A stretch of DNA of 64,000 nt from Acidobacteriota bacterium (GTDB lineage Bacteria > Acidobacteriota > Vicinamibacteria > Marinacidobacterales > Marinacidobacteraceae): assembly GCA_022822745.1 (NCBI GenBank), contig JAJEAO010000032.1, forward strand, positions 62,001 through 126,000. Reading direction: 5' to 3'. Numbering within the stretch: position 1 is the stretch's first letter; each line of letters begins with the position of its first letter. The translations under genes were made by a program, and so were the position numbers. The notes beneath the pieces were generated by a model, which saw nothing but the letters and a program-made list of their open reading frames with translations, searched no databases and was not told the DNA's origin. Positions 42,601 through 43,247 of the stretch are shown here, in pieces.

Positions 42601-42666
42601 GGAACTGGCGCTGGTCCGCGTCCCGCCAGACAGGGAACTGGCGCTGGTCCGCGTTCGCGCGGACGG
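42601..42666. repeat. 33-bp tandem duplication upstream of the selenoprotein
   Basis: The unit GGAACTGGCGCTGGTCCGCG plus 13 bp occurs at 42601-42633 and 42634-42666, diverging at the right end. It fills the gap between rnhA and the selenoprotein start. It shares AACTGGCGCT with the reverse complement of the repeat at 963-1018. Confidence 0.8.
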
Positions 42667-42680
42667 AGCGCCGCCGCGAG

Positions 42681-43247
42681 ATGTCCGGGCTGGAACGAAA
42701 GCCGATGGCCTGGATCTCGACCGTGGCGCCGACGGACGCGCAAGCCCGGGAAGCCCCCCTCGACGATCTCTATCGGCGCCATCGGCGGCCTGACGGGCTG
42801 GTGGATCACATCCTGACCGTCTCGAGCCTCAACCCGGGGACGCTGGAGCGCCACCTCTCGCTCTACGAGCACCTGATGCGCGGCCCGTCGGGGCTGACGC
42901 CCGCCGAGCGCGAACTGATCGCGGTGGCGGTGTCGGTCACGAACGACTGCCATTACTGAATCGAACACCACCGGAGGGGTCTCCTCCGGCTGACCCGGGA
43001 CGAGGCGCTGGTGGAGGCCGTCGTGCGGGATCCCGAGGCGGCGCCGCTCCCGGCCCGGGGCCGCGCCATCAGCGACTACGCGGTGAAGCTGGCGCGCACT
43101 CCCTCCGCCGTGGTCCCGGACGACCTCGCGCCCCTGCGGGCGGCCGGGCTCACCGACCGCGACATCCATGACGCGTGCGCGGTGGCGTCCTACTACTGCT
43201 TCGTGAATCGGCTCGCGAACGGTCTCGGAGTCGAACTCGAGCCGTAG
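42681..43247 (+). CDS. AhpD-like (carboxymuconolactone decarboxylase family) selenoprotein candidate, TGA read as Sec
   Basis: One frame runs 42681-43247 with a single TGA at 42957. Upstream reads LTPAERELIAVAVSVTNDCHY; directly after TGA it continues IEHHRRGLLRLTRDEALV and AISDYAVKLARTPSAVV, ending FVNRLANGLGVELEP. Both halves match peroxidase-related AhpD proteins, and the TGA falls on the second Cys of CxxC (E...CHYx...H). Read through, it is 188 residues with Sec at position 93. A SECIS-type hairpin follows (separate entry). AhpD-type proteins are thiol peroxidases or reductase partners. ATG 42705 (MAWISTVAP) is the alternative start. Without Sec it would be a truncated pseudogene. Confidence 0.8.
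42957..42990 (+). promoter_or_regulatory. Bacterial SECIS-type element (UGA plus hairpin)
   Basis: TGA at 42957-42959 is followed by the stem CCGGAGG (42971-42977), loop GGTCT (42978-42982) and stem CCTCCGG (42983-42989). The stem pairs perfectly and the loop starts 18 nt after the TGA. From memory, the E. coli fdhF SECIS has the same GGUCU loop at the same distance, the part bound by SelB. Confidence 0.75.

Follow-up and report, generated by a model that had tools for sequence, protein, structure and literature searches.

The DNA examined here (hereafter the window) is a stretch of 64,000 nucleotides from an uncultured acidobacterium. On its forward strand the frame 42681-43247 is interrupted only once, by a TGA within the active-site motif (translation ...NDC-H-Y-U-IEHH...). 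The first-pass annotation had described two same-frame halves of one AhpD-like protein separated by a TGA where CxxC has its second Cys, and both the frame and its translation agree with this description. When read through, the two halves were found to form a single TIGR01926 protein (139.7-140 bits against a cut-off of 81.8, covering profile positions 5-174 of 178), with CMD (PF02627) as the Pfam match. The openness of the frame across its one TGA was borne out, but the start had probably been set too far upstream: the ATG at 42681 would give a protein of 188 aa with Sec at residue 93, while the ATG at 42705 is probably the likelier start (Table 1), since conservation among the orthologues begins only at M-[AS]-W-I (MAWI/MSWI). 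The protein reached 39-40 bits on the profile NF041238 (AhpD_rel_CFYUT), whose cut-off is 175, and is thus not a member of that family. Both here and in eight relatives the gene is divergent from an RNase H gene and lies by itself, with amidase or ABC-F genes on the other side, so that the neighbors (RNase H, PhzF-like, amidase and ABC-F) point to no functional link. Just upstream lies an exact direct repeat, which is possibly regulatory or a local duplication.

Table 1. Coordinates of the predicted selenoprotein gene and associated features in the window.
Feature	Position	Strand	Details
AhpD-like (TIGR01926, PF02627) predicted selenoprotein gene	42705..43247	+	180 aa, Sec at residue 85; stop TAG 43245-43247
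Predicted Sec-coding TGA, second position of the C-H-Y-U motif (C82, U85; 180-aa numbering)	42957..42959	+	
Active-site segment C82-x-Y84-U85-x3-H89	codons 42948..42971	+	plus E70, codon 42912-42914
Predicted bSECIS hairpin, 7-bp stem 42971-42977/42983-42989, apical loop GGUCU 42978-42982	42971..42989	+	18 nt after UGA
Exact 21-bp direct repeat GGAACTGGCGCTGGTCCGCGT	42601-42621 and 42634-42654		period 33 bp

The region behind the TGA was examined for a selenocysteine insertion signal. The 7-bp stem with a GGTCT loop that had been reported 18 nt past the TGA is present and folds as claimed, with CCGGAGG pairing perfectly to CCTCCGG, and the fold check that had been proposed for it returned this same structure as the predicted minimum free energy (MFE) fold of the region. 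Its likeness to the fdhF SECIS of Escherichia coli, noted in the first-pass annotation, also proved correct: the E. coli element has the same GGUCU loop exactly 18 nt after its UGA, although its stem sequence is unrelated to the perfect 7-bp stem of the window. The published bSECIS model calls for a small apical loop with a G in the first two positions and situated 16-37 nt downstream of the UGA (PMC13188914), and the hairpin agrees with it in loop size, G and distance; Rfam gave no match here. Compared with dinucleotide shuffles, the hairpin energy (z 0.29) is not unusual in GC-rich DNA, and some 7-bp bSECIS-like hairpin follows 37 of the 972 TGAs in the window (about 4%). A single hairpin is therefore weak evidence, as GC-rich DNA forms hairpins easily. 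The GGTCT at exactly +18 from a TGA occurs once in the window, at this site only. Other sites with a TGA and a hairpin were judged by eye and rejected, including (i) 52788, 53180, 46251, 36434, 11871, and 532, with low-complexity and mostly Arg-rich translations typical of shadow frames; and (ii) 32815, where the frame ends at the TGA and the sequence beyond is unrelated. Judged from sequence comparison, what is decisive is the conservation of the hairpin across relatives, in position and in perfect pairing, and not its energy.

To follow the TGA and its hairpin beyond the window, homologs were searched for in contigs of GTDB genomes and in 60 whole genomes of the same family, order, and class. 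Among the contigs, the TGA was found at the same codon in all eight close relatives (metagenome-assembled genomes labeled Acidobacteria, Acidobacteriota, or Vicinamibacteraceae) and likewise in two Gemmatimonadota records; among the whole genomes, each of the nine further members of the family has it, as do many genomes of other families in the class. The remaining homologs have TGC, TGT, AGC, or GGC, so that the comparison at this codon suggested by the earlier annotation yielded TGA, Cys, Ser, or Gly. A bSECIS-type hairpin was detected in 36 of 38 distinct TGA forms, a set that includes near relatives and hence fewer than 38 independent sequences, where 8.8 were expected under synonymous recoding of the same peptides, and in none of the 14 non-TGA (Cys/Ser/Gly) forms (Fisher P = 7e-11, the rows being related). 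The criteria applied (loop of 3-7 nt with a G in the first two positions, a distance of 15-25 nt from the UGA, at least 6 bp) were fixed after the hairpin of the window had been seen, and are close to the published bSECIS model (PMC13188914). The two TGA forms with no hairpin under these criteria were L039 and L071. Stem sequences vary by clade (CCGGAGG, ACGCAG, CACGGAG, ACGGGGA, CACGCAGA, and CGCCGC), and in a gapless set of 14 sequences one pair was exchanged between G-C and C-G in 5 of the 14, with a covariation score that was matched by 1 of 500 shuffles and slid controls that were near zero. Most Sec forms have the loop about 16-19 nt after the UGA; in L044, L045, L047, L048, L067, and L068 it is found at 24-25 nt, farther downstream than elsewhere in the family, which suggests that the SECIS has moved. 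Furthermore, an excess of codons fixed at the synonymous level was observed at +1 to +12 after the TGA (7 of 12 versus 21 of 99 elsewhere, P = 0.01), which fits an RNA signal located there.

Selenocysteine machinery was next considered, and the search for selA, selB, selC, and selD that had been proposed recovered all four from the same genome. The selC tRNA-Sec scored 73.9 bits with CTTCAAA around its UCA anticodon, SelB and SelD scored above their profile cut-offs, and selA was split between the end of contig G000:C81 and the start of G000:C116, so that these two contigs probably adjoin. In L060 (on G000:C81), an NADH-dehydrogenase-like FAD domain precedes SelD in one fused protein, and the SelD active site contains Cys (CGGCAAK); Ndh-SelD fusions with CxxC were described in the GOS survey (PMC2398784). 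A second candidate selenoprotein, a SelW-like gene with an in-frame TGA in a CVVU (CxxU) motif, was found in the same genome (L089 1501-1704; G000:C42:53502-53705), and a perfect hairpin with the loop GGTCT, 21 nt after that TGA, supports recognition by the same SelB. For formate dehydrogenase, the genome yielded only a below-cut-off relative without a TGA.

Among the genomes searched, 42 have a homolog, 30 with the Sec form and 12 without it; G034, a weak match whose TGA lies elsewhere, was not counted as a TGA form. Profile matches to selA above the cut-off were detected in 29 of the 30 genomes with the Sec form, the exception being G018, whose selA probably falls in an assembly gap since its selB is present. 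By comparison, selA is missing in 6 of the 12 homolog-bearing genomes without the Sec form (co-occurrence P = 0.001). One genome without selA, G015, carries three copies of the AhpD-like gene in a span of about 4 kb (L051, L076, and L077 on G015:C125). Each of them has Cys at the codon in question, and L077 nests with good support beside the Sec form L054 in the tree, a placement consistent with replacement of Sec by Cys. There is also a clade with Ser at this position (C-x-Y-S; L053, L074, and L075). Several genomes, such as G012, G019, and G047, appear to encode more than one Sec paralog. The Ser paralogs of G010 and G012 sit beside Sec paralogs of the same genome.

These findings were weighed against readings in which no selenocysteine is made. 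An assembly or sequencing error, by which the codon would really be TGC or TGT in an ordinary CxxC protein, would agree with the Cys of the solved relatives; it is excluded for practical purposes since the TGA recurs at the same codon in independent assemblies, both of nine further species in the family and of many from other families. A pseudogene broken by a genuine stop is equally improbable, even though a standard gene caller would end the gene at the TGA. In comparisons with nine orthologs, dN was well below dS downstream of the TGA (dN 0.16-0.22, dS 0.66-1.17) as it was upstream (dN 0.17-0.23, dS 0.64-1.6), and the TGA is fixed across genera with its SECIS kept. On these substitution rates, purifying selection acts alike on both sides of the TGA, and the downstream half is thus translated. 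Selection of this kind shows translation past the TGA and says nothing of the residue inserted, which leaves room for a UGA read as Trp or another residue through a changed code or leaky termination. This too is very unlikely, if marginally less so than error or decay, as the TGA sits at the position of a catalytic Cys and is followed by a bSECIS hairpin, the genome has the full set of sel genes, and a genome without selA has Cys instead. Overall, we put the probability that the UGA encodes Sec in an AhpD-like enzyme of this bacterium at about 0.95.

The structure of the read-through protein was examined for its likely activity. An AlphaFold2 model (mean pLDDT 96.6) displayed an all-helical AhpD fold that matched structures 6k40, 3c1l, 2oyo, and 2pfx with TM scores of 0.84-0.92; Bmp8 and sestrin were weaker fold matches (TM 0.7-0.8, low identity). 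The nearest solved relatives by sequence were 3c1l, 2pfx, 6k40, 2prr, and 2oyo. These Cys-form structures, including 3c1l (Mlr4105) and 6k40 (Deinococcus radiodurans AhpD), share the fold and length of the window protein at about 27-35% identity, and have Cys where it has Sec (as aligned for 3c1l and 2pfx). In an alignment of 36 relatives, E70 and H89 were invariant while C82 and residue 85 were at least 90% conserved (Sec entered as Cys). The proton relay of Mycobacterium tuberculosis AhpD consists of Glu118, Cys130, His132, Cys133, and His137, with Tyr in place of His132 in PA0269 (PMC3141380). Residues E70, C82, Y84, U85, and H89 align with these in order, so that all five positions of the relay (Glu, Cys, His/Tyr, Cys/Sec, His) are occupied in the window protein. 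It differs from the M. tuberculosis enzyme in subfamily and chain, in having Sec for the catalytic Cys, and in Tyr84, which stands for His132 as in PA0269.

From the conserved signals, a mechanism may be proposed in which SelB and Sec-tRNA(Sec) would bind the GGUCU hairpin behind the UGA and the ribosome would insert Sec instead of stopping. Sec85, near Cys82, His89, Glu70, and Tyr84, would then occupy the place that Cys133, the second Cys of CxxC, has in M. tuberculosis AhpD, and would most likely be the selenol that attacks a peroxide or other electrophile. Cys82 may resolve the intermediate as a selenenylsulfide, to be reduced in turn by a cellular dithiol reductase, with His89 and Glu70 presumably taking part in proton transfer. 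A peroxide-reducing role is, with moderate confidence, the favored assignment from sequence and fold. The protein could instead be a selenoprotein of another kind, namely (i) a thiol-disulfide adaptor to a peroxiredoxin, as AhpD is to AhpC in M. tuberculosis (PMC3141380); or (ii) a Bmp8-type reductive dehalogenase or a sestrin-like redox sensor, given that Bmp8 (a debrominase) and sestrin are among the fold matches. We regard these options as possible and, taken together, less likely, since the closest family and structures are named as peroxidase-related and the protein retains every position of the AhpD proton relay.

AhpD-like CxxU selenoproteins have been known from environmental data since their detection in the Sargasso Sea by Zhang and others in 2005 (PMC1088965), and they were counted again in the GOS survey (PMC2398784). 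A 2026 review lists a TIGR01926 CxxU selenoprotein, with MCB9421940.1 as its representative, as "predicted with high confidence" and not experimentally verified (PMC13188914). The suspicion in the first-pass annotation that the family might be known from genome surveys was thus correct, and the present locus adds a member to it without representing a new kind of system. By description, the window gene resembles the reviewed TIGR01926 protein in family model, CxxU motif, and a bSECIS behind the UGA; it differs as a new locus from an uncultured acidobacterial family. With NF041238 it shares the AhpD core and CxxU, whereas that model has 357 positions and an N-terminal extension.

The gene is a clear example of one split or truncated by ordinary annotation, in which gene finders take an in-frame UGA as a stop. 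Members of this family have been on record as predictions since 2005, and the listing still gives them as unverified by experiment, so that activity measurements on any of them would be of value. AhpD-like selenoproteins appear to be common in this uncultured Acidobacteriota lineage. With somewhat better than even confidence, we suggest that Sec prevails among the TIGR01926 enzymes of this acidobacterial class, with several paralogs per genome and a SECIS that has shifted between clades, such that one family may record both the relocation of the SECIS and the replacement of Sec by Cys after loss of the sel genes. The collected relatives, in which Sec, Cys, and Ser forms occur together with several SECIS positions, provide material for testing how the SECIS and the exchange of Sec and Cys evolve.
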